From positions 27,869-91,868 of the forward strand of contig JAGACK010000053.1 in NCBI GenBank assembly GCA_017614155.1: a stretch of 64,000 nucleotides of DNA. The letters run 5' to 3'. This DNA is from Lachnospiraceae bacterium. Lineage in GTDB: Bacteria; Bacillota; Clostridia; Lachnospirales; Lachnospiraceae. Shown piece by piece: positions 28,143 through 47,366 of this stretch (positions within the stretch are counted from its first letter, which is position 1; each line of letters begins with the position of its first letter). The translations under genes were made by a program, and so were the position numbers. The notes beneath the pieces are model-generated. The model ran no database searches and was not told the origin of the DNA. It saw only the letters and a list, made by a program, of their open reading frames with translations.

Positions 28143-28328
28143 GACTCAGCAACATGTTTTGTTCACGGCTCGGACAGTTCTAAGCTCACCGTTCGTCTGA
28201 TGAACTAAATTTCGCTCTGCGCCGTTCCGCGCCTGAAAAACGGCGCGGCCTTCGCACCCGCGAAATTTATCAGACTCCGGTTCGCTAAGAACTGCCGGCT
28301 GGGTGTTCACAAAACATGTTGCTGAGTC
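28143..28328 (-). repeat. 186-bp structured repeat, copy A (minus orientation)
   Basis: The outer arms GACTCAGCAACATGTTTTGT and their exact complement bound a multi-helix foldback. Read on the minus strand it aligns without length change to the copies at 35620 and 47181. Inner helices: CAGTTCT/AGAACTG, ACCG/CGGT, TCTGAT/ATCAGA and CGCGCC/GGCGCG. It sits between htpG and the convergent HdeD-like gene and may act as a terminator for both. TAACCGG occurs directly repeated just outside both ends (28135 and 28336), a possible target duplication. Confidence 0.88.
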
Positions 28329-31091: not shown

Positions 31092-32216
31092 ATGGATATA
31101 AAGAGAAATGTTCTTCTGAATCCGGGGCCTTCGACAACTACCGATACGGTCAAGATGGCCCAGGTTGTGCCTGATATCTGTCCGAGGGAAAAGGAGTTTG
31201 CCGGTATCATGGCCCCCATGCGCGACGATCTGGTACGCATTGTTCACGGAGATTCAAAGGAGTACACGGCGGTGCTTTTTTGCGGATCGGGAACGATATG
31301 CATCGATATCGCCCTGAATTCGCTGCTTGATGAGGGAAAAAAGGCGCTCGTCATCAATAACGGCGCCTACTCGCAGAGAGCCTGCGATGTCTGCAGTTAT
31401 TATGGACTGCCGTTCATCGGCTTAAAGCAGCCGCTTTATGAAAAGCCCGATCTCGGGAAAATAGAGGAAACCCTGAAGGAAAACCCCGACATCGGATATG
31501 TATATGTGACCTACCATGAGACCGGGACGGGACTTCTGAACCCGGTAAAGGAGATAGGCGCGCTCGCGCACAGATACGGCGCATTTCTTATTACCGATAC
31601 CACCAGCGCCTATGCGATGATCCCGATAAATGTATATGATCAGAACATTGATTTCTGCATGGCCTCTGCCCAGAAGGGCATCATGGCGATGACAGGTCTT
31701 TCTTATATCATAGGAAGACGCGATATCATAGAAAAGTCAAAGGATTTCCCGAAACGTTCTTATTATTGCAATCTGTATATGCAGTATGAGTATTTCGAAA
31801 AGACGGGAGAGATGCATTTCACGCCTCCCGTACAGACCATCTATGCGGCCCGTCAGGCGCTCATCGAGTATTTTGAAGAGGGCGAGGAGGCCAAATGGGC
31901 AAGGCATCAGCGTGTCATGAAGGCGATCCGAAAGGGCATAGACGAGATCGGGCTTCACGAGGCTTTAAGCCGTGATGTCCAGTCCGGGCTTGTAGCCGCC
32001 ATCGATTATCCCGATGATCCGAACTGGGATTTTGAAAAAATACATGATTACTGCTATGAGAGGGGCTTTACGATCTATCCCGGAAAGATAGACGGCAGGG
32101 GCGGTTTCAGGCTGTGCGCCCTGGGCGCCATCGATGAAAAGGATATTGAGGATTTCTGGGTCGTTTTCAGGGAAGCTCTGAAAGACGCAGGCGTAAGCAC
32201 TCCGATAGGAAAATAA
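31092..32216 (+). CDS. phnW: 2-aminoethylphosphonate-pyruvate aminotransferase
   Basis: A 374-residue fold-type I PLP enzyme. It interconverts phosphonoacetaldehyde plus alanine with 2-aminoethylphosphonate (AEP) plus pyruvate; next to PepM it runs in the biosynthetic direction. Seen are the opening NVLLNPGPSTTTDTVK, the phosphate-binding GSGTICIDIALNS, the Asp of TDTTSAYA and the Schiff-base Lys195 in ASAQKGIMAM, and the C-terminal GGFRLCALGAID. It is the first gene of the operon; the next starts 19 nt on. Ribosome site GAGGATAGG. Confidence 0.94.
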   Translation: MDIKRNVLLNPGPSTTTDTVKMAQVVPDICPREKEFAGIMAPMRDDLVRIVHGDSKEYTAVLFCGSGTICIDIALNSLLDEGKKALVINNGAYSQRACDVCSYYGLPFIGLKQPLYEKPDLGKIEETLKENPDIGYVYVTYHETGTGLLNPVKEIGALAHRYGAFLITDTTSAYAMIPINVYDQNIDFCMASAQKGIMAMTGLSYIIGRRDIIEKSKDFPKRSYYCNLYMQYEYFEKTGEMHFTPPVQTIYAARQALIEYFEEGEEAKWARHQRVMKAIRKGIDEIGLHEALSRDVQSGLVAAIDYPDDPNWDFEKIHDYCYERGFTIYPGKIDGRGGFRLCALGAIDEKDIEDFWVVFREALKDAGVSTPIGK

Positions 32217-32235
32217 GACAGAGAGGTTGAAAATT

Positions 32236-33531
32236 TTGAAAAAAGTCTATACCTGTTTTACAACAGACATAATCCATGAGGGACATCTCAATATAATAAA
32301 GGAGGCCGCAAAGCTCGGAAGCGTCACAATCGGAGCGCTTTCGGATGCCGCTCTCATCCGCTACAACCGTTTTCCGACGATATCGCTGGAGGAAAGGATC
32401 GCGCTTTACAGATCTTTAGACGGCGTCGACGATGTAGTGGTCCAGAACGACATGACGTATGATGAGATAATAAAAACGCTGCGCCCCGATATCGTGATCC
32501 ACGGAGACAACTGGAAGGAAGGACCGGAAAACGCGCTCCGTGAAAACTGCCTGGAGGCGCTTAAGGAATACGGCGGGGAACTTGTCGAGGTCGGATATAC
32601 GTATAATGAAAACGTTGCAAAGGCAGACAGGCAGCTCAAGGAAAAGCTGGCAATGCCCGAATACAGAAGGAAACGCTTAAGACAGCTCATAGATATCTGT
32701 CCCATAGTCAAGGTGATGGAGGCGCACAGCGGACTGACTGGTCTTATTACCGAAAAAACCATCGTGGAAAAAAACGGGAAGCTTGACCAGTTTGACGGTA
32801 TGTGGGTTTCGTCGCTGTGCGACAGCACGGACAGGGGCAAGCCCGATATCGAGCTGGTGGATATGACATCCAGGCTTCGTACGATCAATGATATCATGGA
32901 GGTCACGACGAAGCCGATAATCCTTGACGGGGATACCGGCGGACTGACCGAGCATTTCGTATATAATGTGCGTACCCTTGAAAGGATGGGTGTTTCGGCA
33001 GTCATAATAGAGGACAAGACCGGACTGAAAAAGAATTCGCTGTTTGGCACGGAAGTGGTCCAGACCCAGGATTCCATAGAGAATTTTTCGGCGAAGATCG
33101 CTGCAGGAAAAAGAGCGCAGCTTACGGATGATTTCATGATCATCGCCCGTATCGAATCCCTGATCCTTGAGCAGGGCATGGAGGATGCGCTGAAAAGGGC
33201 CTTTGCTTTTGTAGAAGCGGGCGCGGACGGCATCATGATCCACAGCCGCAAAAAGGACCCTGCCGAGATCTTTGAATTCTGCGACCTGTTCAGGAAAAAG
33301 AACACTTCGACACCCATAGTCGTTGTCCCGACCTCGTTCAACAGCGTGACTGAGGAAGAACTTGCAGGACACGGCGTCAATATAGTGATCTATGCAAATC
33401 AGCTGATGCGCGCGGCGTTCCCGGCCATGAAGCAGACAGCAGTCGAGATACTGACAAACCACAGGGCCCTCGAGGCGGATTCACACCTCATGCCCTTCAA
33501 GGAAATAATCACCCTGATCGACGAGTTATGA
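32236..33531 (+). CDS. pepM: Phosphoenolpyruvate mutase with N-terminal cytidylyltransferase-like domain
   Basis: PepM converts PEP to phosphonopyruvate, forming the C-P bond. The start is taken as TTG 32236, 9 nt after GAGAGG; TTG 32227 is too close. Residues 1-130 form a nucleotidyltransferase domain with HEGH (residues 14-17), LEERIALYRSLDGVDDVV and VIHGDNWKEG. Residues about 150-430 form the isocitrate-lyase-superfamily mutase with DGMWVSSLCDST, the catalytic EDKTG segment (259-263) followed by KKNS as in true mutases, and IIARIESL and HSRKKDPAEI. The N-terminal domain may nucleotidylate phosphonopyruvate, its derivatives or another substrate. Stop overlaps the next start (ATGA). Confidence 0.93.
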   Translation: MKKVYTCFTTDIIHEGHLNIIKEAAKLGSVTIGALSDAALIRYNRFPTISLEERIALYRSLDGVDDVVVQNDMTYDEIIKTLRPDIVIHGDNWKEGPENALRENCLEALKEYGGELVEVGYTYNENVAKADRQLKEKLAMPEYRRKRLRQLIDICPIVKVMEAHSGLTGLITEKTIVEKNGKLDQFDGMWVSSLCDSTDRGKPDIELVDMTSRLRTINDIMEVTTKPIILDGDTGGLTEHFVYNVRTLERMGVSAVIIEDKTGLKKNSLFGTEVVQTQDSIENFSAKIAAGKRAQLTDDFMIIARIESLILEQGMEDALKRAFAFVEAGADGIMIHSRKKDPAEIFEFCDLFRKKNTSTPIVVVPTSFNSVTEEELAGHGVNIVIYANQLMRAAFPAMKQTAVEILTNHRALEADSHLMPFKEIITLIDEL

Positions 33532-34253
33532 TGATAAGGAGCGAAGAAAAAAAGTTCAATGAGATCGCGATCCTGATGGCAGCGGGAATGGGAACGAGGA
33601 TGAGGCCTCTGACGGAGAATACGCCGAAGCCGCTGATAAAGGTACGCGGCATCCCCATGGCCGAAACCGTGATAGGCGGTCTCAGGGAGCGTGGGATAGA
33701 GGAGATCACAGTCGTTACAGGGTATCTGGGAGAACAGTTTTCATATCTTGAATCGAAATATCCCGGTCTTTCCACAGTGTCCAACAAAGACTATGAAACC
33801 GTCAATAACATCTCATCGATAAAAGCCGTGACTGACAGGCTGCGCGGAAGAAATGCATTTATCTGCGAGGCCGATCTTTTTGTGTCGGATCCGTCTATCT
33901 TTCAGGCAGATCTTGAGGGCTCCTGTTATTTCGGAAAATATGTCAGCGGATATTCCGATGACTGGGTGTTTGAACGCGATGAGAAAGGGTTTATCACTCG
34001 CGTCGGCAAGGGCGGCACGGACTGCTATAATATGTGCGGTATCGCGTACTTTACCGCTGAGGATGCCACGATACTTGCAGATGCGATCGACGAGCGGTAT
34101 TCAACTGACGGATATGAGGATCTTTTCTGGGATGATGTGGTCAATGAAAACCTGGACAGGCTTCGCCTGACTGTTCAGCCAGTAGGCCATGATCAGATAG
34201 CGGAGATAGATACCGTCGAAGAGCTGCGGGCCTTTGAAGAGCGCACAGACTAG
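33528..34253 (+). CDS. Nucleotidyltransferase, probable AEP cytidylyltransferase (PntC/LicC-like)
   Basis: A 241-residue sugar-phosphate-nucleotidyltransferase-type enzyme. MAAGMGTRMRPLTENTPKPL is the nucleotide-binding signature, ICEADLF supplies the metal-binding Asp, and DCYNMCGIAYF and EDLFWDDVV resemble LicC-type choline-phosphate cytidylyltransferases. In other bacteria a homologue next to PepM (PntC) makes CMP-AEP, the activated donor for decorating surface glycans. Its place between PepM and a TagB-like transferase supports that role; choline phosphate as substrate is the main alternative. Overlaps pepM by 4 bp. Confidence 0.8.
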   Translation: MMIRSEEKKFNEIAILMAAGMGTRMRPLTENTPKPLIKVRGIPMAETVIGGLRERGIEEITVVTGYLGEQFSYLESKYPGLSTVSNKDYETVNNISSIKAVTDRLRGRNAFICEADLFVSDPSIFQADLEGSCYFGKYVSGYSDDWVFERDEKGFITRVGKGGTDCYNMCGIAYFTAEDATILADAIDERYSTDGYEDLFWDDVVNENLDRLRLTVQPVGHDQIAEIDTVEELRAFEERTD

Positions 34254-34280: not shown

Positions 34281-35609
34281 ATGAATCCGATGCTTTTGTA
34301 TATCGATCCCGGAACGGGAAGCATGCTTTTTACCATACTGATAGGAGCAGTCTCAGCCGGGTATTTTGTTTTTCAGAAACTGAAGCTGAAAATGAAATTC
34401 GTGCTCTCGGGAGGCAAGGCGGGAACGGCGGATGCCGAAAAGATCCCATATGTCATCTTTTCCGACAGCAAAAGATACTGGAATGTATTCAAGCCGGTCT
34501 GTGATGAATTTGAAAAACGCGGCATAGACATCGAATACTGGACAATGTCGGAGGACGACCCCGCGCTGAAGGAGAGCTACAGCCATGTGAAGCCTTCCTT
34601 CATAGGAGAGGGCAACAAGGCGTTTTCAAAGCTGAATATCATGAATGCAGGCGTGGTGCTTGCCACAACGCCAGGTCTGGATGTCCTTCAGTGGAAGAGA
34701 TCAAAGAATGTAGACTGGTATGTTCACATCCTGCACCAGCCCGGAGACACCACATTTTACAGGATGTTCGGGCTTGATCATTATGATGCCGTGCTGATCT
34801 CCGGCGAGTACGAGGAAAAGCAGCTTCGTGACATCGAGGCGCTGAGAAATATAAACAGACGCGAGACATGCCTGACAGGCATCACATACCTTGATACCAT
34901 GAAGGCCAGGCTGGAGAAAGACGGGGGAGACAGGGGGACGGTCCTGCTGTCTCCTTCCGCAAACGAACAGCAGCAGAATACTGACTCCGAAACGAAGGAG
35001 ACAACAGGACCGTCCCCCTGTCTCCCCGATACAAAGACCGTGCTTCTTGCGCCGACCTGGGGCGAGACAGCGATTCTTTCGAGGTTCGGCGAGAAGATAA
35101 TAAGCGCTCTTGTCAGTACCGGATACAATGTGATCATCCGTCCTCATCCGCAGTCCTTTGAATCGGAAAAGGAGATGATGGACAGGCTGCAGAAAAAATT
35201 CCCGGAGAGCGAAAAGCTTCACTGGAACAGGGATAATGACAACTTTGAAGTGCTGAAGAGCGCCGATATCATGATCACGGATTTCTCCGGAGTCATGTTT
35301 GATTATGCGCTGATATTTGACAGGCCGTTCATATACGCGGATATCAAATTTGACAAATCTGCCTACGATGCAGCATGGCTCGATGAGGATATGTGGACCC
35401 TGCGTATCCTTCCCTCGATAGGCATACCGCTTCGGGAAGAGGATTTTGACAACATAAAAGAGGTCATAGACAAAGCCGTCAACGACGAAAGCCTGGCGGC
35501 AGGCCGTGACAGGGCAAGAGCCGAGACCTGGGCAAATCCCGGCAGGGCAGCAGAACTCACCGTCGATTACCTCGTAAAGAAACACGATTCATTTAACACG
35601 AAGGAATAG
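34281..35609 (+). CDS. CDP-glycerol glycerophosphotransferase-family (TagB-like) protein with in-frame REP insertion
   Basis: A 442-residue protein with an N-terminal membrane segment (about 14-31) and the TagB/TagF two-Rossmann fold. The first half has TTPGLDVLQWKRSKNVDWYVHI and DHYDAVLISGEYEEKQLRDI; the second opens with TVLLAPTWGETAI, followed by VIIRPHPQS, the SADIMITDFSGVMFDYAL motif and RPFIYAD, which carry the family's catalytic His and nucleotide-binding residues. Such enzymes transfer polyol-phosphate from a CDP donor; here CMP-AEP could be the donor. Residues 215-248 between the halves are translated REP repeat, in a linker. Ribosome site AAGGAGG. Confidence 0.88.
   Translation: MNPMLLYIDPGTGSMLFTILIGAVSAGYFVFQKLKLKMKFVLSGGKAGTADAEKIPYVIFSDSKRYWNVFKPVCDEFEKRGIDIEYWTMSEDDPALKESYSHVKPSFIGEGNKAFSKLNIMNAGVVLATTPGLDVLQWKRSKNVDWYVHILHQPGDTTFYRMFGLDHYDAVLISGEYEEKQLRDIEALRNINRRETCLTGITYLDTMKARLEKDGGDRGTVLLSPSANEQQQNTDSETKETTGPSPCLPDTKTVLLAPTWGETAILSRFGEKIISALVSTGYNVIIRPHPQSFESEKEMMDRLQKKFPESEKLHWNRDNDNFEVLKSADIMITDFSGVMFDYALIFDRPFIYADIKFDKSAYDAAWLDEDMWTLRILPSIGIPLREEDFDNIKEVIDKAVNDESLAAGRDRARAETWANPGRAAELTVDYLVKKHDSFNTKE
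34925..35026. repeat. Full REP-like element inside the TagB-like gene
   Basis: Left half 34925-34954, 42-bp centre, right half 34997-35026; total 102 bp, exactly 34 codons. The halves read through as GDRGTVLLSP and TTGPSPCLP in the protein. The gene on either side remains in one frame. Confidence 0.93.
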
Positions 35610-35619
35610 ATGAAAAAGT

Positions 35620-35805
35620 CATCAGGATGTATGTTTTGTGAACACCCAGCCGTCAGTTCTTAGCGAAACGGAGTCTGATAAATTTCGCGGGTGCGAAGGC
35701 CGCGCCGTTTTTCAGGCGCGGAACGGCGCAGAGCGAAATTTTGTTCATCAGACGAGCGTTGAGCTTAGAACTGGACGAGCCGTGAACAAAACATATATCC
35801 TGATG
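35620..35805 (+). repeat. 186-bp structured repeat, copy B
   Basis: Outer arms CATCAGGATGTATGTTTTG... and ...CATATATCCTGATG. Inner helices CAGTTCT/AGAACTG, AACG/CGTT, TCTGAT/ATCAGA and CGCGCC/GGCGCG, with conserved unpaired TAGCGAA and AAATTTCGCGGG segments. It lies between the TagB-like gene and the YidC-sulfatase gene inside the phosphonate operon and ends 23 bp before the latter's start, which lacks a Shine-Dalgarno site. Confidence 0.88.
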
Positions 35806-35828: not shown

Positions 35829-38441
35829 ATGGGCGAATTTTTATATTATCTTGCTATAAAACCTATATGGCTTCTCTTTGAGATCATATTCAGGATCAGC
35901 TACACCCTCTTTTCCAATCCGGGAATATCGATACTTTCAGTCAGTCTCGTTATGAACATCCTCGTGCTTCCCATGTATCTGCGTTCCGATGCGATGCAGG
36001 CCGAGGAACGGAAAAAGCAGAAGGATATGGAACACTGGGTCAGGGAGATCCGCAGGACCTTCAAGGGAGATGAAAGATTCATGATCCTGTCGGAATACTA
36101 CCGTCAGAATGATTATCAGCCCTGGTATGTCCTGAAAAGCTCTCTCTCGCTGCTCCTTCAGGTGCCGTTTTTTATTGCGGCATATGATTTCCTTTCAAAC
36201 CTGACACTCCTTAAAGGCGCATCCTTCCTGCTGATCCCGGATCTGGGCAGCCCGGACGGCCTGATACCCGTGGGGGGTCTGCACATCAATCTGCTTCCCG
36301 TTCTGATGACTGCGATAAATCTCACTTCCGCAGCTATCTACACAAAAAACGGAACAAAAAAAGAAAAGGTCCAGACCGTAGTGTTTGCGCTCGTCTTTCT
36401 GGTCTTATTATACGGATCACCCTCGGGACTCGTGATCTACTGGACTTTGAACAATGTCTTTTCACTTTGCAAGAACATAGTCATGGATATCCTTGCAAAG
36501 AAGAAAAAGCCTGAGAAAACCGCAGAAAAAGAACAGCCCGTACCCGAAAAAGACAGGGACACCGTCAGGCTCTGGGCGCTTTCAGCTGTCCTTCTTACTG
36601 TATTTACCGGGCTTTCCATTCCGCTTTCCCTGATAGAAGCGTCCCCAAAGGATTTTGCCGCCAATCTGGTATATCCCGATCCTGTCCGGTATGCTTTCCT
36701 GGCCTTTGCCATCGCGGCAGGGATATTCATACTCTGGGGGGCAGTCATATTTTTCCTGTCCAAACAGAAAACAAGGAAGATCATTGGACTTGCCGCGTTC
36801 TGCGCATCCGTCATCTTCATCATCAACCATATGGTCTTTTCGGGACAGTTCGGGATCATATCCTATACGCTGATCTATGATAAGGATCCGTATTACGGTT
36901 ATGTCAGCGAGATACTCAATGCTCTGTTTGTCATCCTGATGATATTCGTCCTGATCATCTTTTATAAAAACAGAAAAAAGCTTGTATTCAGCATCCTGAG
37001 CATCCTCATCGTGTGCGAGACGATATTCAGCATTTACAACATAGTCTCCATAGAAAAGACGCTCGGAGCCACGCTTGCTTCCTCAAGGGTCGACAAGCAT
37101 GCAGTGGAAAAAGCGGATATCAATAATAAGTTCCTGAAGCTTTCCTCGAAGGGGAAAAATGTCATCGTGATCATGCTCGACAGATCCATCGGCGCCTACA
37201 TCCCCTATATATTCCAGGAAAAGCCGGAGCTTGAGCAGTCGTTTTCGGGATTTACCTTTTATCCGAATACGGTCTCCACGGGAACCAATACCATCAATGC
37301 TTCCGCAGCGCTTTTCGGCGGCTATGAATATGCGCTTGACGAGTCGAACAAAAGGGATGATGTCCTCATAAAAGACAAGCAGAATGAGGCGCTGAAGCTG
37401 ATGCCTACTCTCTTTGCAAAAGAGGGTTACCATTCAACCGTATGCGACCTTCCATATGCGGACCTGGAGTTTGATTTCAGAACGGGCAAGAGAGTATTTG
37501 ATGATGTGGAAAACTGTGACGCGTACTGCGCTTCAAACGGAGAATACAATGATTATCTGACAGAGAAGGAGAGGGCGTGTATAGAGCTTGAGCAGCAGAA
37601 GAGGAATTTCTTCTTTTACAGCCTGTTCAGGTCCGTGCCGCTTTTTGCGCAGGAGGCTGTCTATGACCAGGGAAATTATCTTTCGATCACAAGCAATAAT
37701 ATCAGGTACCATTTCATCACCTGCATTTCATTCCTGCGTCTGATGCCGCAGCTGACACAGATCGTCGATGACGGAAACAGCAAGGGAGAGCTGATCATGA
37801 TCCAGAACGAGGCTCCGCACGAGATAGTATCGCTCAACCCTCCCGATTATGAGCCTGATTCATCCGTCAGGATGGTGAAGCCCGAGAACCGTACCCTTCC
37901 GAACGGACAGGTCATGGATCTTTCAAACAAGTTCAGATCGGATCATTATGATGTGGATATGGCCAGCATCATGAAGCTTGCCGGATGGATGGACTGCCTG
38001 AAGGAACTCGGAGTTTACGATAATACCAGGATCATCATCACATCGGACCACGGCTTTGAGCTGGGTCAGTTTCAGGATATACTCTTTGACGACATAGCCA
38101 TGGATGTTGAAAGCGTCAATCCCGTGCTTCTTGTAAAGGATTATGATGCTGACTTTGAGGGAGTGAAGACGGACGATACCTTCATGTGCAATGCAGATGT
38201 ACCGACCATAGCGATGAAGGACATAATAAAAGATCCGGTCAATCCCTTCATGGGCAATCCCATAAACAGTGACAGGAAAAATGAAGGCCCGATCGTCCTC
38301 ATGAATACAAAGATAGATGTGGATGCCGAAAAAGACACGGTTTATGATAATGAGGTGGTCTCGTGGTATTCGGTGCATGACAATATCTTTGACCGCGCCG
38401 ACTGGGAGCGCCTGAGGGTAGGCGTTGACATGGAGGAGTGA
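35829..38441 (+). CDS. YidC/Oxa1-like membrane domain fused to LtaS-like sulfatase-fold transferase, copy 1
   Basis: An 870-residue protein. Residues 1-235 match the YidC insertase core: SLVMNILVLPMYLRSD, a charged cytoplasmic hairpin, YYRQNDYQPWYV, LLLQVPFFIAAYDFLSN, LPVLMTAINLTSAAIY and GLVIYWTLNNVFSL. Further membrane helices fill about 250-420. Residues about 435-870 are an extracytoplasmic alkaline-phosphatase-superfamily domain as in lipoteichoic acid synthases: IVIMLDRS (metal Asp451), the TNTINASAALFGG region with the probable nucleophilic Thr, and ITSDHGFE (Asp740-His741). The YidC groove arginine position is Asn. Its place in the AEP operon suggests transfer of a phosphorus-containing group to a surface polymer or lipid. 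No ribosome site is visible upstream. Confidence 0.85.
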   Translation: MGEFLYYLAIKPIWLLFEIIFRISYTLFSNPGISILSVSLVMNILVLPMYLRSDAMQAEERKKQKDMEHWVREIRRTFKGDERFMILSEYYRQNDYQPWYVLKSSLSLLLQVPFFIAAYDFLSNLTLLKGASFLLIPDLGSPDGLIPVGGLHINLLPVLMTAINLTSAAIYTKNGTKKEKVQTVVFALVFLVLLYGSPSGLVIYWTLNNVFSLCKNIVMDILAKKKKPEKTAEKEQPVPEKDRDTVRLWALSAVLLTVFTGLSIPLSLIEASPKDFAANLVYPDPVRYAFLAFAIAAGIFILWGAVIFFLSKQKTRKIIGLAAFCASVIFIINHMVFSGQFGIISYTLIYDKDPYYGYVSEILNALFVILMIFVLIIFYKNRKKLVFSILSILIVCETIFSIYNIVSIEKTLGATLASSRVDKHAVEKADINNKFLKLSSKGKNVIVIMLDRSIGAYIPYIFQEKPELEQSFSGFTFYPNTVSTGTNTINASAALFGGYEYALDESNKRDDVLIKDKQNEALKLMPTLFAKEGYHSTVCDLPYADLEFDFRTGKRVFDDVENCDAYCASNGEYNDYLTEKERACIELEQQKRNFFFYSLFRSVPLFAQEAVYDQGNYLSITSNNIRYHFITCISFLRLMPQLTQIVDDGNSKGELIMIQNEAPHEIVSLNPPDYEPDSSVRMVKPENRTLPNGQVMDLSNKFRSDHYDVDMASIMKLAGWMDCLKELGVYDNTRIIITSDHGFELGQFQDILFDDIAMDVESVNPVLLVKDYDADFEGVKTDDTFMCNADVPTIAMKDIIKDPVNPFMGNPINSDRKNEGPIVLMNTKIDVDAEKDTVYDNEVVSWYSVHDNIFDRADWERLRVGVDMEE

Positions 38442-38512
38442 CCGCTGTTTTTTTGGCAGATTATGTGTTAATATTTTTTTCGTTGCTGTATAAATGAATT
38501 CAGGTGGAGATT

Positions 38513-39637
38513 ATGAAAGCAGAGGAATTATTTGAGATCATAGGCTCGGATTTTTACACGGGAGTTCCGGACAGCAGGCTTAAGGGGCTGTGCAACTTCC
38601 TGATGTCAAAATACGGGATAGACAGGAAACATCATGTCATAGCAGCCAATGAAGGCAACTGTCTGGCACTGGCGGCAGGGTATCATCTTGCCACGGGAAA
38701 GATCCCGGTGGTGTATATGCAGAACAGCGGCGAGGGAAATATCATAAACCCTCTGGCATCCCTGGTAAACGACAAGGTATATGCGATACCCGTGATATTT
38801 ATCATAGGCTGGCGCGGTGAGCCGGGGATACACGATGAACCCCAGCACATCTATCAGGGCATAGTGACGGAAAAGCTCATGCAGGACATGGATGTTGCGA
38901 CCTTTATCATCGGGAAAGAGACGACGGGAGAGGAAGTATCTGCTGCCATGAGTTCGTTTTCCGGTGTTCTTTCAAAGGGAAAGCAGGCCGCATTTATTAT
39001 ACGGGAAGGCGGGATCAGCTTTGACGGAAAGGTGGATTACCATAATAAGTACGAGCTGAACCGCGAGGAAGTGATAAAGCATATAGCCTCAGTGACGGGA
39101 AGCGATCCGGTCATTTCAACGACAGGAAAGATCAGCCGTGAGCTTTTTGAGATCCGGACCGCGGCGGGCGCAGACCACGGAACGGATTTCCTGACGGTCG
39201 GATCAATGGGCCACTGCTCGACGATCGCCCTGGGAGTTGCCATCAACAAGCCCGGAACGAAGGTGTGGTGCATAGACGGGGACGGCGCGGCTTTAATGCA
39301 TATGGGCGCCATGGCTGTGATTGGAACAAATGCTCCTTCAAACCTGGTTCATATCGTGATAAACAACAGCGCGCATGAGACAGTCGGAGGAATGCCTACT
39401 GTTGCCGGCGAAGTTGACTTTGTCGCGATCGCGAAAGCCTGCGGCTACAAAAATGCAGTCAGCGTTTCGGATATGGATGCGCTCGATGAAAAACTGAGGG
39501 AAGCAAGGGACAGAAATGAGCTTTTCTTCATAGAGGTAAAATGCCAGGTCGGGGCAAGATCAGATCTGGGGCGTCCGACCACGACGGCTCTTGAGAACAA
39601 GGTGAACTTCATGAAGCATCTGGAGGGCCTGCAGTAA
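38513..39637 (+). CDS. Phosphonopyruvate decarboxylase
   Basis: A thiamine-diphosphate enzyme, 374 residues from ATG 38513 (ribosome site AGGTGGAG; the GTG at 38504 is inside that site). It decarboxylates phosphonopyruvate to phosphonoacetaldehyde, pulling the unfavourable PepM reaction. The N-terminal half has FYTGVPDSRLKGLCNFL, the cofactor-activating Glu in ANEGNCLALAAGYHLATG and GWRGEPGIHDEPQH. The C-terminal half has GSMGHCSTIALGVA and the diphosphate-binding IDGDGAALMHMG...NN motif. It completes PEP to AEP together with PepM and PhnW. A 71-bp gap separates it from the fusion gene. Confidence 0.93.
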   Translation: MKAEELFEIIGSDFYTGVPDSRLKGLCNFLMSKYGIDRKHHVIAANEGNCLALAAGYHLATGKIPVVYMQNSGEGNIINPLASLVNDKVYAIPVIFIIGWRGEPGIHDEPQHIYQGIVTEKLMQDMDVATFIIGKETTGEEVSAAMSSFSGVLSKGKQAAFIIREGGISFDGKVDYHNKYELNREEVIKHIASVTGSDPVISTTGKISRELFEIRTAAGADHGTDFLTVGSMGHCSTIALGVAINKPGTKVWCIDGDGAALMHMGAMAVIGTNAPSNLVHIVINNSAHETVGGMPTVAGEVDFVAIAKACGYKNAVSVSDMDALDEKLREARDRNELFFIEVKCQVGARSDLGRPTTTALENKVNFMKHLEGLQ

Positions 39638-39673: not shown

Positions 39674-41188
39674 ATGAAAAAGGCTTCGGATTTTTTTGAA
39701 AAGTACAATCTGATCTTTATGATCCCGGTGATAGCGGCATACGGTTTTACCAGGCTGTTTTACCTGGGAGAGATCTCTTATTATATCCATATGAGGGAAC
39801 TTGAGGCGGCGTATGAAGCCTTCAGCCTTGCGCGCTTCGGTACCGACAGTACGCTTTCGGGTGTTTCGACATTCTTTGGCGGGCTCGGCGATGGACACAG
39901 CGCTTTGCTGATCCTGCTTTCAGCGGCTCTTTTCAAGGTTAAGGCGGGATATTTTTCATTGAAGCTTTTCCGGCTCATAGCTGTTGCCGGCGGGCTTTTC
40001 GGCATGATCTTTTCTTATCTTTTCGTGTGGGAGTGGACAGGCAGGAAAAAGAATGCCTTTACGGCGGCTGTTCTTGTCACGACTCTTCCGATATACTTCC
40101 TGTCCCAGCGCGACAGTGTTGAGGAATTCCTTGTTCTTTCCATCCTGCCGGCAGCCTTTTATTTTCTGGCGGCCGGAATCAAAAGATCAAAGGCATGGCT
40201 GTTTTTATTATCAGGCATCGTATTTGCCCTGGCGCTTTTTTCGTGCAGCAGCGCTGTTCTCATCGTGCCTGTCTTCCTGGCCGTGTCGGTCATGTACATG
40301 ATCTTTGTAAAGAAGCTGAGCATCCCGCGGGCGGCATTTCTTATCATTCCGGTCATAGCGGGCCTTGTCATAATGGCGCTCTTTTCAGGCCTGCATGTTA
40401 ATGCGGACTTTGGAAAGATCGTATCAAATATCCGCAGGATCAGGGTCATGTTCTGGGATGATCATCATGACTTCAGTGTTATCCCCGACTTTGGCACGAT
40501 GTATGTTTTCTCGATACCGATACTTATCACCGGTGTTGTCGTTTCGTTCAAAAAAGTCCTGGTTTCATTCAGGGAACGCACTTTTGATATGTCGGTGATC
40601 ATATGGCTCTTTCTCGTGACGGGCTTTATCTGCTGTCTGACGATACCCAAAGCTGATATCGCTGCGTGCAGCGCCCTCTTTTTTGCGATAACCATGCTGC
40701 TTGCACAGGGAACCGTCTATATAGCCGACAATCTGAAGGGCACCTTCCCCGTCATCATGCTGATCCTGTTTTTCAGCCTCGGGGTGCTGGCGCATTACTA
40801 TTTTGTAAATTACAATTCGGAACTTAATCACAGCAAAGATCACGAAAAGGAAATCATAGTAGATAAAAGCGCGGGCGAAGCGGTAAAGGCTGCGCTGAAG
40901 ATGTTCCCGGGAAGGGGCGTCACGGTTTTTGCCGGAGAGGATCATGAAGGCAGGAACCTCCAGATCGCATTGTACGCAGGCGCATCGCCTGCCGATTACT
41001 TATCTTTCCGTGACAGCGACAATTTCTCATTTGGTGACATAGAGGTCAATCCGACAGACGGAGACTTTGACTACGGCCGGGTCTATGTCATCGATCAGGC
41101 TGCGCATCCCGACATGATAGAGATGTTCTCATCGGTAGGATGGGGGATGACGGCTCTCAAGGAATATACCCTCTTTTATATGAACTGA
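39674..41188 (+). CDS. Polytopic membrane protein resembling GT-C (GT39/ArnT-type) glycosyltransferases
   Basis: A 504-residue protein with about eleven hydrophobic helices in residues 15-385, then a 120-residue C-terminal extracytoplasmic domain. The layout and the first loop (LGEISYYIHMRELEAAYEAF) resemble GT39-type enzymes that use lipid-linked sugars, and SQRDSVEEFLVLSILPAAFY resembles the second conserved loop. The first-loop Asp-Glu catalytic pair is not obvious here, so it may be divergent or inactive. Last gene of the AEP operon, 37 nt after the decarboxylase. Ribosome site AAGGTGA. Family call is moderate; a substrate is not readable. Confidence 0.6.
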   Translation: MKKASDFFEKYNLIFMIPVIAAYGFTRLFYLGEISYYIHMRELEAAYEAFSLARFGTDSTLSGVSTFFGGLGDGHSALLILLSAALFKVKAGYFSLKLFRLIAVAGGLFGMIFSYLFVWEWTGRKKNAFTAAVLVTTLPIYFLSQRDSVEEFLVLSILPAAFYFLAAGIKRSKAWLFLLSGIVFALALFSCSSAVLIVPVFLAVSVMYMIFVKKLSIPRAAFLIIPVIAGLVIMALFSGLHVNADFGKIVSNIRRIRVMFWDDHHDFSVIPDFGTMYVFSIPILITGVVVSFKKVLVSFRERTFDMSVIIWLFLVTGFICCLTIPKADIAACSALFFAITMLLAQGTVYIADNLKGTFPVIMLILFFSLGVLAHYYFVNYNSELNHSKDHEKEIIVDKSAGEAVKAALKMFPGRGVTVFAGEDHEGRNLQIALYAGASPADYLSFRDSDNFSFGDIEVNPTDGDFDYGRVYVIDQAAHPDMIEMFSSVGWGMTALKEYTLFYMN

Positions 41189-41266: not shown

Positions 41267-41481
41267 GTTTAATTTACATAAATTTGGTGTTGACATAATC
41301 TGTTTACCTGGAGTAGTATCGAAGGTGGGGTATCTTTGCCCTGCCTTAACCTGTTTTTTGGGGAGTTTTTTTCGAATCATTAAGCAGACGGAACATAAAA
41401 ACCGGTGCTGACGGCAGGGAAGCCTTCAGGGTAAAAAAGGAAACTGTGACAGAAAATTATTTTGATCAAGGAGAGTTCAGG

Positions 41482-44400
41482 ATGAAGAAGAGAATTCGGA
41501 AACAGTTGTCGATGCTGCTCATCATAGCAATGATATTCTCGATGACCGGCAATGTTTTTGCGGATGAGATAAAGGATAATCCCGGTGTTTCGGAAAATAC
41601 GCCGGTGATGCCGGGGGCAGGTGCCGGAGCGGAAAATCCCGCAGATACAGGTACCGGATCCGAGGATACGGCGCCGGAAGAGGCAAAGACGCCTTCAGGA
41701 GATGAGACTGTTCCCGAAGCGCCCGCAGAACCTGAACCGGGTACGGATGAGAATGTATCGGATAACGGCACCGAAGAGCCTGTTTCCGGTGATGAGATCT
41801 TCCCGGCAGAAGAGGAAGGCACAGATCTTTTGGAGGAGGCAGCGGGAGATGCGGTAACGGTTTCAGATGATGCATCCATCAGGGCAGCAGTTGCAGCAGC
41901 AACTACAGATCCGAAGACCATCGTTCTGACCGGGGACATAAGCCTGAACGGAGTACTGGAAATAGACAGCGGAAAGAACATAACCATCGATCTGAAGGGC
42001 CACAGGATATCCGGAAAGGGAACGCTGCTCGATGGACTCAAAACGAAGATCAGCACAGGTGCATCTACTGCGATGACCCAGGTGTTCAAAAATAAATTCC
42101 TTATTTCGGTAAAGGGGTTGGATACCAAACTGAACCTGACCGATTCGTCCGGATCAAACGGATCGATCATTAACGATACCACAGATTCCGACAGTGTCAT
42201 AGTTGTCTGGGAGAAAGCGTCACTGACAGCCGAAAAGGTGACCTTGAAAGCATATGAGAACAAGGTGGCGGCTCAGAACGCTCTGACGGCAGGCGGAAAA
42301 GCAGTGATGGTCGTCGGTGGTCTGGGAGTCGGAGCAGCTTCGGAAAACTCCACTGCCACACTGAATCAGGGATTTAAGGTAGAGGATGGTTATCTTGGAT
42401 TATATGCGATAGGAAACGGCGCGACTATCGTTGCAAATGAAGGTGTTGAAGTAAGGGGAAGAAACACGGCCATCCAGAACTTCGGCCAGAAATGGACATT
42501 CGGAACAAACATAACCGTAAACGGAGGTACTTTTACGGGACTGAACGATGACAGCGATGCCGTCTATCATGCAGGTGACGGAACGCTGAGGATAAACGGC
42601 GGTACCTTCAGGGGAGCCGCAGGTGTCGAGATCAGTAACGGCAAGGCCTTTATAAACGGCGGTGACATCAGCAGTACGGCTGAATTCAGAAACGGACTGG
42701 ACAAGACATATCTGTACAGCGGTTCTACGGTCGTCGGATGTGCCGTATGCTATTCGCCGTATACGGACAGCAACCTGGACAGCTGCCTTGACATCACGGG
42801 CGGCAATATCTCAGGTGCGATGGGCCTGTTCTTGAATTACAGGGGCGGAGACGCTAACTATTACAAAACTCATATCAAGGTGAATATAGCAGGCGGAAGC
42901 TACACATCCGTTGGTAAAGCCGGTGATGCATTCAGTGTGAGCGACAATGTCCCGCTGGGTGCAAATATGTCCACAATACTGAAGTTTACAGGCGGAACTT
43001 TCAATACACAGCCTGACAAGAAATACATAAGCACCGGTTATTACGCAAAAAAAATCAATGACAGCCGCTTTGATGTGGTCCCGGTAAATAGTGCTTATCT
43101 CTATCCAAAGCTTGCAACGAAGCATGTTCTCGTCGGACAGACTCTCGGAGAGGTTGTAAAAACCGTCCTTAGAGATGCCTATGGGACCGAATACGAGGGA
43201 ACGGTCGTAAACGGCGCGGCATATATCAGCACGAACGAAGCCGGTACCGCTCCGAATACGGACCTTGGTGAATCGGTTTCCTTCAATAAGCCCGGGACAT
43301 GGTATGTTGCATCCAAAAAGGGTGCCGGAGCTCTTTCGGTAAGCTGTAACGGTGAAGATGTGACACATGAATACAGCATTTTAAATCAGACCGGATCGCC
43401 TCTGTCCGTCAATCAGATCCTGAAATTTACGGTCGAGGATGTTTCGGGCGACAGGATCGTGATCGAACAGATAAAGCCGGTATATTATTCCATGCCGGTC
43501 AGCAGCGTCCATGATTATTTCAATATCTACTATATCCATAATGGCGAGAAGCTCCTCTTGACAAAAGATCAGAAGGTTGACATAAAATGGGGAGAATCCG
43601 AAGGAAGCATAAACTCTCCGGCATATGTTTATGACGATAAAAACGCTGAGACCAGGATATGGCTGAAGGCTGCTTATCTCGGGACATCACAGACAGCCTC
43701 ATTTATGATAGAGCGCCGCCCTGTTTACATCGTCGGCTCCAAGGAAGTCACATCCCTGGTGGGCGACGAGCTTGCAGAGAGATACTACGGGACGATAAAG
43801 GTATACGGCACGGATGAAGACGGAAAGATGGATGAAAAAGAGGAAGTCTCGGTCAACGATGTCCGTATGGAGGAATGGTTTGATTCCACATCATCCGTGA
43901 TCGACCTTACCGGCATAACAAATGCGAGAAAGGGAGATTACAGGGCTGTACTGAAAGATTGCGGAAGACTGAATGAAAAGATGTCGGTCAACTATGAACT
44001 CATGGAAAAGGCCTGGATCACTTATTCCGTCAGGGCTTCCCTTATTCTTGATTTCATGGATCCCGCAAGGGAGACCGAGCTTACATCCACAAAGATCAGA
44101 AGAGCGGATGACAGGACACCGCTTCTCATATACAGCTTTTCAAATAAGCAGAGCACACTCAGCGCCAGCTGGTGCGTGAAGACTGTTTCCTACGACAGGA
44201 TAGAGCAGTGCTGGAATGAGGAGATGGTCGGGGTTGAAGAACTGGGCGTTACCACAACCCCCATCGCGAACAATATGGGTACCAGGTTTGAATTCGGAAA
44301 TGAATTCCTGAACGGAATCAGTGAGAACGGCGCCAGGTATACATTCTACGAGATCTTCAAGGAAGACATGACTTACAAGGACAAGGGCAACTTAAGCCTT

Positions 44401-45999
44401 ACCGTAAAGGCTGTGGCGCCTGTTGTCTATAACGGAAACAAATTTGTCGCAAAGGATGATGCCGCCTATTATTCAAGAGGAATCCCGAAGAGCGGATACA
44501 GTCCGATACTTGACATATCCGTATGGGACGGTTCAAACAAGCTTATCATAGGCACTGATTATACTCTTTCATATAAAAATAATAAGAACGCGGGCAACAA
44601 GGACAGCGACAAGGTGCCCATGGTCGTAGTCACCGGAAAGGGAATCTATTCGGAAATGAAGATCAATGTTCCGATCACGATCCTGGCCGCAGACCTTTCA
44701 CGCGCTGCAAATGTCTCCATGACCACGCAGTATGTCAAGTATAACGGAAAGGCCTTAAGCCCGAAACTGAAGGTGTTTTACAGGAGCGGCGCAAATGCCG
44801 GAAAAGAGATACCTGCATCCGCCTACGATATCACCATCCTTGATTCCGAGAAAAAGGATGTGACTGCAAAGAAGTTCAAGAAGAACAGCGGTTTTGAAAG
44901 GTACACCGCTGTCATCACGGCAAACGGCAGCAACCCGAATATCACCGGCAGCATCAGCCAGGTCGTAAAGGAAATCGATGATGCCGGAAATGAGACAAAG
45001 GATGATATTTTCTTCTATGGCATACCGAAGAGCGCCGCGAAGCTGACGGTCGGAGGAACTCTTGCAAAAGTGACATATCCGCTTCCCGAGTCGGCTGAAG
45101 GTATCGAAAGCTTTATCGACAAGGATAAATTCTATGCGAAGAATTCTGACAGGAAGTTCTTTTATGAAGATGTTGAAAACGGGAGCGTGAGCATAGATCT
45201 CGTCGACAGCATGGATGAATGTGTCGCCGGTGTATATGATCCGAAGGACAAGGATACGCTGAATTCAGGCGTTTATTATCTGAAGGTACAGCTGGCGACC
45301 GAAGAACTGAAGTTCAAGTATTATACATTTGAGCCCACCTACAAAAAGGTGACCTATGCAGGCACGAAGCTGAATACGAATGATGTGAAGCTGAAGAAGA
45401 AGTCATTTGATTTCTCAAGCGAAGACGAGAGCACGCCTCTGACAGTCAAGGTATCGAACAGGCTTGTGAACAAGGGCATGGAAGGCGTGAGGCTCTATGT
45501 CTATCAGAACGGGAAGATCCTGGAGCTTACCGAGGTTGCTGAGAACGCGTATGTGATACCCGGCGAAGAACTTGAAAACAACAAAGCCGGAAGATACCGC
45601 ATCAGAGTTGAGGGAACAGGTTCTTATTATGGAGGATATGATCTGACATATACCATAGGCGTACAGGCGTATAATAAGGACACGACGCCGATCGCTGCCT
45701 TTGTCAATACGGCAACGGACAGCCCTGATGACGAGACGGAGCGTGCAGTGCCTTACAGGCCTGACGGCAAATATCCGGATGAGTATGTGAAGGTCGTATG
45801 GACAAAGTCAAATAATGAAAAGGTCGTGCTGAAGCCCAGGACAGTTTCCGGAGGAAATGTGATCACAGGCGATTACTATGTCATATGGGGAACCTTCAAG
45901 CAGGTCGGACCGAAGAAGGGTACAGTGACAATTGTCGGTACCGGTACATATTTTACAGGAAAGATCAAGAAGAAATTTGATGTCACCCAGGCAGAATAG
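41482..45999 (+). CDS. Large secreted surface protein with beta-helix and Ig-like repeats
   Basis: 1505 residues from ATG 41482, preceded by AAGGAGAG; the upstream ATG at 41446 has no ribosome site and would hide the signal peptide. Signal: KKRIRKQLSMLLIIAMIFSM, cleavage after FADE or nearby. Residues about 28-120 are Pro/Glu/Thr-rich. About 135-560 look like a right-handed beta-helix (TVNGGTFTG, LRINGGTFRGAAG, AFINGGDISS, ITGGNISGAMG). The rest is a series of beta-sandwich modules, including MBG/Ig-like ones (YNGKALSPKLKVFY, LSYKNNKNAGN, VTGKGIYSEM). No LPxTG or lipobox, so it is secreted or held non-covalently. Probable adhesin or glycan-binding protein; no catalytic motif recognised. Confidence 0.85.
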   Translation: MKKRIRKQLSMLLIIAMIFSMTGNVFADEIKDNPGVSENTPVMPGAGAGAENPADTGTGSEDTAPEEAKTPSGDETVPEAPAEPEPGTDENVSDNGTEEPVSGDEIFPAEEEGTDLLEEAAGDAVTVSDDASIRAAVAAATTDPKTIVLTGDISLNGVLEIDSGKNITIDLKGHRISGKGTLLDGLKTKISTGASTAMTQVFKNKFLISVKGLDTKLNLTDSSGSNGSIINDTTDSDSVIVVWEKASLTAEKVTLKAYENKVAAQNALTAGGKAVMVVGGLGVGAASENSTATLNQGFKVEDGYLGLYAIGNGATIVANEGVEVRGRNTAIQNFGQKWTFGTNITVNGGTFTGLNDDSDAVYHAGDGTLRINGGTFRGAAGVEISNGKAFINGGDISSTAEFRNGLDKTYLYSGSTVVGCAVCYSPYTDSNLDSCLDITGGNISGAMGLFLNYRGGDANYYKTHIKVNIAGGSYTSVGKAGDAFSVSDNVPLGANMSTILKFTGGTFNTQPDKKYISTGYYAKKINDSRFDVVPVNSAYLYPKLATKHVLVGQTLGEVVKTVLRDAYGTEYEGTVVNGAAYISTNEAGTAPNTDLGESVSFNKPGTWYVASKKGAGALSVSCNGEDVTHEYSILNQTGSPLSVNQILKFTVEDVSGDRIVIEQIKPVYYSMPVSSVHDYFNIYYIHNGEKLLLTKDQKVDIKWGESEGSINSPAYVYDDKNAETRIWLKAAYLGTSQTASFMIERRPVYIVGSKEVTSLVGDELAERYYGTIKVYGTDEDGKMDEKEEVSVNDVRMEEWFDSTSSVIDLTGITNARKGDYRAVLKDCGRLNEKMSVNYELMEKAWITYSVRASLILDFMDPARETELTSTKIRRADDRTPLLIYSFSNKQSTLSASWCVKTVSYDRIEQCWNEEMVGVEELGVTTTPIANNMGTRFEFGNEFLNGISENGARYTFYEIFKEDMTYKDKGNLSLTVKAVAPVVYNGNKFVAKDDAAYYSRGIPKSGYSPILDISVWDGSNKLIIGTDYTLSYKNNKNAGNKDSDKVPMVVVTGKGIYSEMKINVPITILAADLSRAANVSMTTQYVKYNGKALSPKLKVFYRSGANAGKEIPASAYDITILDSEKKDVTAKKFKKNSGFERYTAVITANGSNPNITGSISQVVKEIDDAGNETKDDIFFYGIPKSAAKLTVGGTLAKVTYPLPESAEGIESFIDKDKFYAKNSDRKFFYEDVENGSVSIDLVDSMDECVAGVYDPKDKDTLNSGVYYLKVQLATEELKFKYYTFEPTYKKVTYAGTKLNTNDVKLKKKSFDFSSEDESTPLTVKVSNRLVNKGMEGVRLYVYQNGKILELTEVAENAYVIPGEELENNKAGRYRIRVEGTGSYYGGYDLTYTIGVQAYNKDTTPIAAFVNTATDSPDDETERAVPYRPDGKYPDEYVKVVWTKSNNEKVVLKPRTVSGGNVITGDYYVIWGTFKQVGPKKGTVTIVGTGTYFTGKIKKKFDVTQAE

Positions 46000-47180: not shown

Positions 47181-47366
47181 CATCAGCATACATGTTTTGT
47201 GAACACCCAGCCGTCGGTTCTTAGCGAATCCGAGGCTTATAAATTTCGCGGGTGCGAAGGCCGCACCGCTTTTCAGGTGCGGAACGGCGCAGAGCGAAAT
47301 TTTGTTTATAAGACGAAGGATGAGCTTAGAACCGGACGAGCCGTGAACAAAACATGTATGCTGATG
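47181..47366 (+). repeat. 186-bp structured repeat, copy C
   Basis: Perfectly paired outer arms (CATCAGCATACATGTTTTGT with its complement at 47347-47366). Inner helices CGGTTCT/AGAACCG, ATCC/GGAT, CTTATA/TATAAG and CGCACC/GGTGCG differ from copies A and B at paired positions, keeping the pairing. It lies between the acyltransferase and rho genes. Confidence 0.9.

Follow-up and report, generated by a model that had tools for sequence, protein, structure and literature searches.

What could an insertase fold contribute to an enzyme that works on the cell surface? This question is raised by a gene in a 64,000-nt stretch of Lachnospiraceae bacterium GCA_017614155.1 (contig JAGACK010000053.1, 27,869–91,868, forward strand; hereafter the window, to which all positions refer). 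The open reading frame at 35829–38441 encodes a YidC/Oxa1-like domain joined to a catalytic domain resembling lipoteichoic acid (LTA) synthase, LtaS, and lies among genes for 2-aminoethylphosphonate (AEP) synthesis. We confirmed that it encodes a genuine YidC-LtaS-like fusion, and we consider it very probable that its two halves, together with a transferase of the PF04464 family encoded next to it, form one surface-tailoring system.

The frame is unbroken over 870 amino acids (aa). Residues 32–219 match the Pfam profile 60KD_IMP at 3e-21 (76.5 bits against a curated cut-off of 35), and the best sequence matches of residues 14–219 among solved structures are YidC proteins (4.9e-6 for the sequence searched alone, 1.7e-11 for a profile of 54 members). 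The score against NCBIfam TIGR03592 is 81.3 for this copy, with a cut-off of 84.3, and 93.2 for a second fusion at 54406. A preliminary description of the locus had placed a YidC core in the first ~235 residues, in agreement with the profile and with the sequence matches to solved structures; profile searches, to which it had left the question of whether a YidC fold is present at all, return one clearly. The MLDRS, Thr and SDHG motifs that it had located in the C-terminal half were found at their places, where residues 443–747 match Pfam Sulfatase (4.6e-11; 43 bits against a curated cut-off of 25). D451, T488, H664, D740 and H741 are invariant in all 54 aligned homologues and G742 in 53 of them. 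By analogy, T488 is the presumed nucleophile, and metal-ligand roles are presumed for D451, H664, D740 and H741 in the same way.

Hydropathy and charge pattern of the 54 homologues give the YidC part an N-terminal amphipathic stretch, five transmembrane (TM) segments and a cytoplasmic hairpin at residues 51–104. After a basic linker follows a second membrane block with hydropathy peaks at residues 260, 298, 327, 370, and 394. Mean loop charges are +3.5 for the hairpin, –1.3 for loop 125–150, +2.5 for loop 171–183 and +7.6 for the linker, and continue with –1.4, +1.9, –0.7, and +1.7 beyond it; this alternation fits the positive-inside rule with the catalytic domain outside. The chain is thus predicted to run from a YidC core ending inside, through five further TM segments, to an outward-facing enzyme. 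With its C-terminus predicted inside, a YidC domain could be joined directly to a cytosolic enzyme or, if a TM block crossing from inside to outside intervenes, to an enzyme on the outer side. Both domain families had been recognized in the preliminary description, which overlooked the five TM segments between them as well as the second fusion in the window and two further copies in the genome.

Among 299 genomes drawn evenly from the same family, 16 carry the fusion, in 24 copies altogether; the source genome (G000) has four, two of them within the window. First looks scored at most three candidates per genome for the fusion, five for the IDPGTG protein and four for the YidC-PF04464 protein (both described below). 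Since these 24 proteins are joined by 79 named loci matching at nearly full length, an assembly chimaera is unlikely. The named loci (four are contigs already sampled) are the best of 533 candidates ranked by likeness to the window protein, and therefore not an unbiased sample. By title they belong mostly to Lachnospiraceae, Ruminococcaceae/Oscillospiraceae and other Clostridia, a large share being of rumen or gut origin, while oddly labelled entries (two short contigs assigned to Treponema, one record to Actinomycetes) are possible binning errors. Judged by title, Lachnospiraceae XBD2001 and AB2028 and Ruminococcaceae YAD3003 and YRB3002 seem to be isolates. Neighbourhoods were counted at 97 non-duplicate fusion loci, four of 100 stretches having been removed as duplicates; this set shares the bias of the likeness ranking, and its gene tags rest on profiles built from a few of the same loci with self-set score lines. 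Alignment A1 omits three of the 24 fusions with overlong starts, and alignment A2 comprises 52 of 90 proteins plus the two window copies.

The gene just upstream of the fusion encodes a protein beginning MNPMLLYIDPGTGSM, in which a hydrophobic segment with the IDPGTG motif precedes a PF04464 domain (53.6 bits against a cut-off of 22.1). The AEP genes noted in the preliminary description do surround the fusion; this steadier partner had escaped it. The IDPGTG protein is matched at E ≤ 1e-15 in 24 of the 299 genomes, strongly (E < 1e-60) in 15 and weakly (1e-16 to 4e-32) in nine, a line which we set after seeing the gap down to 4e-32. All 15 genomes with a strong match carry the fusion, and 15 of the 16 fusion genomes have a strong match (Fisher p = 2e-24); in the remaining one (G215), the fusion lies at a contig end. 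The partner stands within 10 kb at 72/97 fusion loci and less than 500 bp away at 67, on the same strand in 64 of the latter. In the unbiased subset, i.e., 22 loci of the 16 genomes, 15 have it within 10 kb and 12 have an activation gene (supply of a headgroup activated with cytidine triphosphate, CTP). The adjoining cassettes suggest that the donors of the partner are cytidine diphosphate (CDP) or monophosphate (CMP) compounds other than CDP-glycerol. Multiple copies occur, e.g., in a 19-kb stretch of Ruminococcaceae YRB3002 (L174) with four fusion genes and two IDPGTG genes, and in L162 with three fusions and two IDPGTG genes. At L041 (12535–14700), the IDPGTG/PF04464 protein has 721 aa and is ~300 aa longer than the others; its extra C-terminal part gave no Pfam match at 0.001.

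A second arrangement came to light when the fusion genomes were searched for PF04464 and YidC: one frame (G022:C57) contains both a YidC and a PF04464 domain, with a stand-alone LtaS-like gene directly before it. Such YidC-PF04464 proteins are matched in 15 of the 299 genomes (in G216 split across two contigs), including all nine with a weak IDPGTG match, and G022 is the only genome holding both arrangements. Stretches from ten of these 15 genomes were examined (L118, L201–L209). A stand-alone LtaS-like gene lies nearby in L118, L202, L205 (with one intervening gene), L207, and L208, and an activation-type gene in eight of the ten stretches. Pfam confirmed both domains in five YidC-PF04464 proteins (G022:C57 and all four others tested) and the Sulfatase domain in all four LtaS-like neighbours tested. 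The LtaS parts of the two arrangements are homologous over 434 columns including the TM block (hhalign probability 99.6, E 7e-24), with T488 aligned to an invariant Thr of the stand-alone relatives, and so are the PF04464 parts over 351 columns (probability 100, E 1e-45). The three parts hence stay together while YidC sits on either the outer or the inner enzyme, which suggests that they act sequentially with YidC between them; this swap of position is the strongest evidence for such an order of action. Genome G283 carries four YidC-PF04464 matches, two each on contigs C32 and C21, and one of those on C32 is 2.4 kb from PepM.

The YidC halves of the YidC-LtaS-like fusions form a single clade with 100/100 support. 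Of the 109 non-duplicate fusions, 30 entered one YidC tree and 16 the other (L206, truncated at a contig end, was excluded), and one of the two trees is flagged for long branches and an unsettled bootstrap. After addition of 30 YidC sequences representing other families in the phylum, the YidC-PF04464 clade was placed with housekeeping YidC (99/91) and separate from the fusions. A single clade of both fusion types is not rejected by the topology test (p-AU 0.229). On these trees we tentatively favour two recruitments of YidC, one by the outer and one by the inner enzyme, over a single one. The idea that the fusion is the sole YidC of the cell (in G000, only the four fusions were found) was rejected as a general explanation, as 14 of 16 fusion genomes carry a separate YidC; the two without an unfused copy, G000 and G052, are both incomplete assemblies.

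Which headgroup the system handles differs between loci. An activation gene lies within 10 kb at 44/97 fusion loci, where PepM occurs at 14, choline kinase at 18 and both together at none. Ten of the PepM loci also contain PhnW, completing an AEP cassette, and four have an alcohol dehydrogenase instead (iron-type family confirmed in L041), which suggests 2-hydroxyethylphosphonate. A nucleotidyltransferase protein of ~600 aa is found at five loci, once together with choline kinase, and the two proteins of this type tested, from L051 and L202, are joined to an aminotransferase; one further locus has a glycerol-3-phosphate-cytidylyltransferase-like gene, assigned by likeness only. On one contig of G261, an AEP-gene module (L045) coexists with a module of choline kinase, BCCT transporter and MTTB (L044). 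At the genome level, PepM accompanies the YidC-PF04464 protein in 9/15 genomes versus 22/284 others (p = 1.4e-6) and lies within 5 kb of it in seven (G135, G190, G251, G283, G290, G294, G297); its link to the window-type fusion is weaker (6/16 versus 25/283 genomes, p = 0.003). Because the cassettes vary between AEP, hydroxyethylphosphonate-like and choline-type, AEP is one headgroup among several and not the cargo of the whole family. The preliminary description had named AEP as prime candidate cargo. The above counts do not support this for the family, but it is likely for the window copy: the PhnW, PepM, PntC-like and phosphonopyruvate decarboxylase genes which it had recognized around the fusion were all recovered by profiles, and this copy probably handles AEP.

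How could the three parts work together? On the outside of the membrane, LtaS-like enzymes draw phosphoryl headgroups from lipids, so that AEP or phosphocholine would have to be loaded onto a lipid inside and then brought out. Relatives of the PF04464 enzyme use CDP-linked donors, which makes it a natural candidate for the loader. The YidC domain could in turn be the natural carrier, as lipid scrambling in vitro is described for the YidC of E. coli (PMC10491306, preprint), and precedent for a lipid donor is given by SccH, which takes glycerol phosphate from phosphatidylglycerol (PMC11754754). Genes for surface glycans near some loci (GT2, ABC exporter, Wzt, RmlD, and flippase, among ten chosen proteins) point to a polysaccharide as acceptor. 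From the parts, their company and their swaps, together with the predicted membrane order, we infer a lipid intermediate, its translocation and a surface acceptor.

In such a relay, PepM, the decarboxylase and PhnW would make AEP, which the LicC/PntC-like enzyme would convert to CMP-AEP, as in the established enzymology of the neighbouring families. At the inner face, the IDPGTG/PF04464 protein may then transfer AEP from CMP-AEP to a lipid, for which diacylglycerol and a polyprenyl carrier are the likeliest candidates, and the YidC-like domain would carry the headgroup-lipid along its hydrophilic groove to the outside. Judged by the chemistry of its superfamily, the LtaS-like domain could take AEP onto T488 with the assistance of metal and then transfer it to a hydroxyl group on a surface glycan, whereupon the lipid would be released. 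The machine itself would be neutral toward the headgroup: relatives adjoin cassettes for choline/ethanolamine, hydroxyethylphosphonate-like or other CTP-activated compounds. The phosphorus groups attached to the surface are probably AEP here and phosphocholine elsewhere. That the insertase fold serves an extracytoplasmic phospho- or phosphono-transferase, as proposed in the preliminary description, is supported as the best reading of the data, and a lipid relay with YidC as translocator, which we favour over the rival readings below, is a real, albeit uncertain, possibility. Somewhat more tentative is the fuller picture, in which the YidC/Oxa1 fold would be a dedicated headgroup-lipid translocase within an enzyme, recruited twice, in a Kennedy-like branch leading from a CDP- or CMP-linked headgroup to a lipid that the attached LtaS-like transferase would consume at once, with a swappable headgroup (AEP, hydroxyethylphosphonate, choline, ethanolamine, perhaps glycerol).

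Several observations weigh against the relay, and part of them would fit two decorations made independently: the IDPGTG enzyme, like enzymes of the LicD or TagF type, would load AEP or phosphocholine on a glycan within the cytosol, and outside, the fusion would separately add glycerol phosphate or phosphoethanolamine from an ordinary phospholipid, with YidC as scaffold or glycan holder. The nearest solved relatives of the partner are, by name, polymer-building enzymes (the TagF-like capsule polymerase Cps3D, Bcs3, and TarL), and SccH makes use of bulk phosphatidylglycerol (PMC11754754). No IDPGTG partner lies within 10 kb at 25/97 fusion loci (13 among the 57 loci whose flanks reach 5 kb or more on each side), and the source genome has four fusions but one strong IDPGTG match. 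Among the activation genes of the types sought, none is found within 10 kb at 53/97 loci. Only three of the 16 fusion genomes (G000, G036, and G261) have PepM less than 5 kb from the fusion; in G004, the AEP cassette with PepM adjoins an IDPGTG gene and no fusion, and in G022 and G052 PepM stands beside neither (stretches L119, L120, and L121 for G004, G022, and G052). A stand-alone LtaS relative was seen in only five of the ten YidC-PF04464 stretches. LicD is present in 10/16 fusion genomes (183/299 in the family overall), with a distance of 2.5 kb to PepM in G261, so that a LicD route is possible there; in G000, a 94.7% complete assembly, it gave no match. Tests of whether the cassette tracks the transferase or the fusion were neutral: for the 36 loci whose cassette contains PepM, choline kinase or the ~600-aa nucleotidyltransferase, its type needs nine changes on each quick tree (fusion and partner), and distance correlations are alike. 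By direct sequence comparison, the C-terminal half is tied to LtaS weakly. Its matches to solved structures are short and weak, with a phosphonate monoester hydrolase at 1.1e-5 and the LTA synthase 4uoo at E = 0.0097 (both with the 54-member profile), and kinship to LtaS passes through the stand-alone relatives, which match LTA synthase 2w5q at E = 4.4e-6. Nevertheless, the near-perfect co-occurrence of fusion and partner and the swapped fusions point to one sequential process, and a mere scaffold would leave unexplained why conservation is highest in YidC among the parts measured. We therefore regard two separate decorations as rather unlikely, while taking them seriously.

The remaining explanations concern the YidC domain itself. 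It could move a larger intermediate than a simple lipid, i.e., a carrier-linked headgroup-glycan or short polymer made by the IDPGTG enzyme; PF04464 enzymes act on carrier-linked glycans, and polysaccharide genes (GT2, RmlD, and flippase or ABC exporter, among the ten chosen proteins) occur at several loci. However, some clusters (L035, L037, L208) already hold exporter or flippase genes and the groove of YidC is narrow, which makes this improbable. A true protein insertase dedicated to assembling the partner or a surface protein would agree with the function of the YidC family and with a 60KD_IMP score far above the cut-off; yet ordinary unfused YidC is at hand in most fusion genomes, and the domain is also joined to an enzyme of cytosolic type, so that we hold this role to be very improbable. 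The groove does little to separate these functions. N43, polar and uncharged, occupies the position of E. coli R366, which is N, S, Q, or T in all 54 fusions and positively charged in none, and this position is said to be strictly positively charged in YidC (PMC8920935). An absent R366 equivalent as a sign of lost insertase function was nonetheless rejected, because 9/14 readable housekeeping YidC of the same bacterial family also lack a positive residue there (N, Y, or V; positive in 5/14); moreover, R366A alone still complements in E. coli (PMC8920935). Least probable of all, and hardly credible, is a passive anchor which merely pins the enzyme to the membrane. In the YidC-PF04464 proteins YidC does occupy the place of the IDPGTG segment, with the alignment of the PF04464 types beginning after it, but the fusion already owns five further TM segments. 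Mean identity over 68 adjacent pairs is 57% for YidC, 46% for the catalytic part and 33% for TM6–10, and this better conservation of the YidC half speaks against a passive role; its hairpin is not specially conserved (0.55 in the fusions versus 0.54 in housekeeping YidC).

Compared with known systems, the novelty of the lipid relay and its machinery lies in the combination and the proposed route, not in the parts, each of which is of a known family. In LtaS, which builds polyglycerol phosphate, a block of five TM segments leads to a catalytic domain on the outside, in which a Thr and DHG are conserved; the fusion is predicted to have this layout and is distantly related via the stand-alone relatives, whereas LtaS has no YidC domain. 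The GacH/SccH-type glycerol phosphate transferases of streptococcal wall polysaccharides are outward-facing enzymes of the alkaline phosphatase superfamily, too. SccH likewise decorates a surface polysaccharide with a phosphoryl headgroup taken from a lipid, but its donor is ordinary phosphatidylglycerol, and the available text of the source describes no YidC domain, PF04464 partner or CTP-activated cassette (PMC11754754). With the lic and pnt pathways (LicA/LicC/LicD and PepM/PntC) the clusters have in common the activation chemistry to CDP-choline or CMP-AEP and LicC/PntC-like genes; activation by LicC is known and PntC makes CMP-AEP (PMC6697681). For the transfer, the same paper points to LicD-like phosphotransferases, in contrast to G000 with no LicD match, and calls the later steps of phosphonyl tailoring enigmatic; "insertase," "sulfatase," and "glycerophospho" are absent from its main text. 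The core shared with YidC/Oxa1 insertases by profile and sequence differs from them in being joined to an enzyme, in standing mostly beside a normal YidC, in forming its own clade and in the uncharged groove position. TagF/TarL-type CDP-polyol phosphotransferases carry PF04464 like the partner, which differs by the IDPGTG segment or YidC domain in front and by cassettes suggesting donors other than CDP-glycerol. In the open-access full texts searched, we found neither an insertase-type domain within such an enzyme nor a fixed IDPGTG/PF04464 partnership or a lipid relay described, in keeping with the earlier statement that no enzyme with the YidC-LtaS arrangement is known.

If the relay holds true, the enzymes using CMP-AEP would be named for a share of gut and rumen Clostridia, and with them a missing step after PntC in phosphonate tailoring. 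An Oxa1-superfamily protein would have a job beyond protein insertion, offering a natural test of the cellular use of the lipid scrambling reported for the insertase (PMC10491306). Phosphonate- and choline-bearing surface polymers, along with the intermediate lipids, would be predicted in such bacteria.

The features of the window are collected in Table 1.

Table 1. Features of the window around the YidC-LtaS-like fusion (positions in the window).
Feature	Position	Strand	Evidence
2-Aminoethylphosphonate aminotransferase PhnW	31092..32216	+	TIGR03301 1.2e-128, above cut-off
Phosphoenolpyruvate mutase (PepM) with N-terminal cytidylyltransferase-like domain	32227..33531	+	TIGR02320 1.7e-124, above cut-off; PF01467 7.3e-13
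LicC/PntC-like nucleotidyltransferase, presumed CTP:AEP cytidylyltransferase	33528..34253	+	NTP_transf_3 1.1e-11; related gene in choline and AEP loci
Partner: 'YIDPGTGSM' N-terminal hydrophobic segment and PF04464 glycerophosphotransferase-type domain	34281..35609	+	Pfam 2.3e-14
Fusion: YidC/Oxa1-like domain, residues 1–222	35829..36494	+	Pfam 60KD_IMP 3e-21; PDB YidC matches; hydropathy, charge pattern
Fusion: basic linker, residues 215–248, predicted cytoplasmic	36471..36572	+	Mean net charge +7.6 in 54 homologues, longer inserts counted
Fusion: second membrane block, residues 249–406, five TM segments, inside to outside	36573..37046	+	Hydropathy peaks, positive-inside pattern
Fusion: LtaS-like alkaline-phosphatase-superfamily catalytic domain, residues 443–870	37155..38438	+	Pfam Sulfatase; conservation; kinship to stand-alone LtaS-like proteins
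Fusion: catalytic-type residues D451; T488; H664; D740-H741-G742	37179–37181; 37290–37292; 37818–37820; 38046–38054	+	
Phosphonopyruvate decarboxylase	38504..39637	+	TIGR03297 1.2e-134, above cut-off
PMT-like membrane protein	39674..41188	+	PF13231 E = 0.004, below cut-off; relatives in AEP loci L123, L124, L125
1517-aa protein, signal-peptide-like N-terminus	41446..45999	+	No Pfam match; one relative, 52% identical, beside L125 AEP cluster
Second YidC-LtaS-like fusion, 906 aa	54406..57126	+	60KD_IMP 1.2e-25, Sulfatase 3.6e-7; no partner within 10 kb

Downstream of the decarboxylase gene, the PMT-like membrane protein is perhaps a GT-C glycosyltransferase building the acceptor, and the 1517-aa protein may tentatively be regarded as a candidate acceptor or surface partner. 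A secreted-looking protein of 1581 aa lies near the swapped-type AEP cluster of L209 and gave no BLAST match to the 1517-aa protein at 1e-4. Directly upstream of the second fusion, 51650–54385 encodes a hybrid histidine kinase with a receiver domain and a C-terminal DegV domain. Moreover, the window contains a dispersed repeat of ~186 bp with near-perfect inverted ends of ~23 bp, present at 35620–35805, 47181–47366, and 28154–28317 (minus strand) with 90–96% identity. An Rfam scan of window positions 28000–60000 at gathering scores gave no match, the repeat copies there included. One copy sits within the AEP cluster between the partner gene and the fusion gene, and the repeat looks like a miniature inverted-repeat element.

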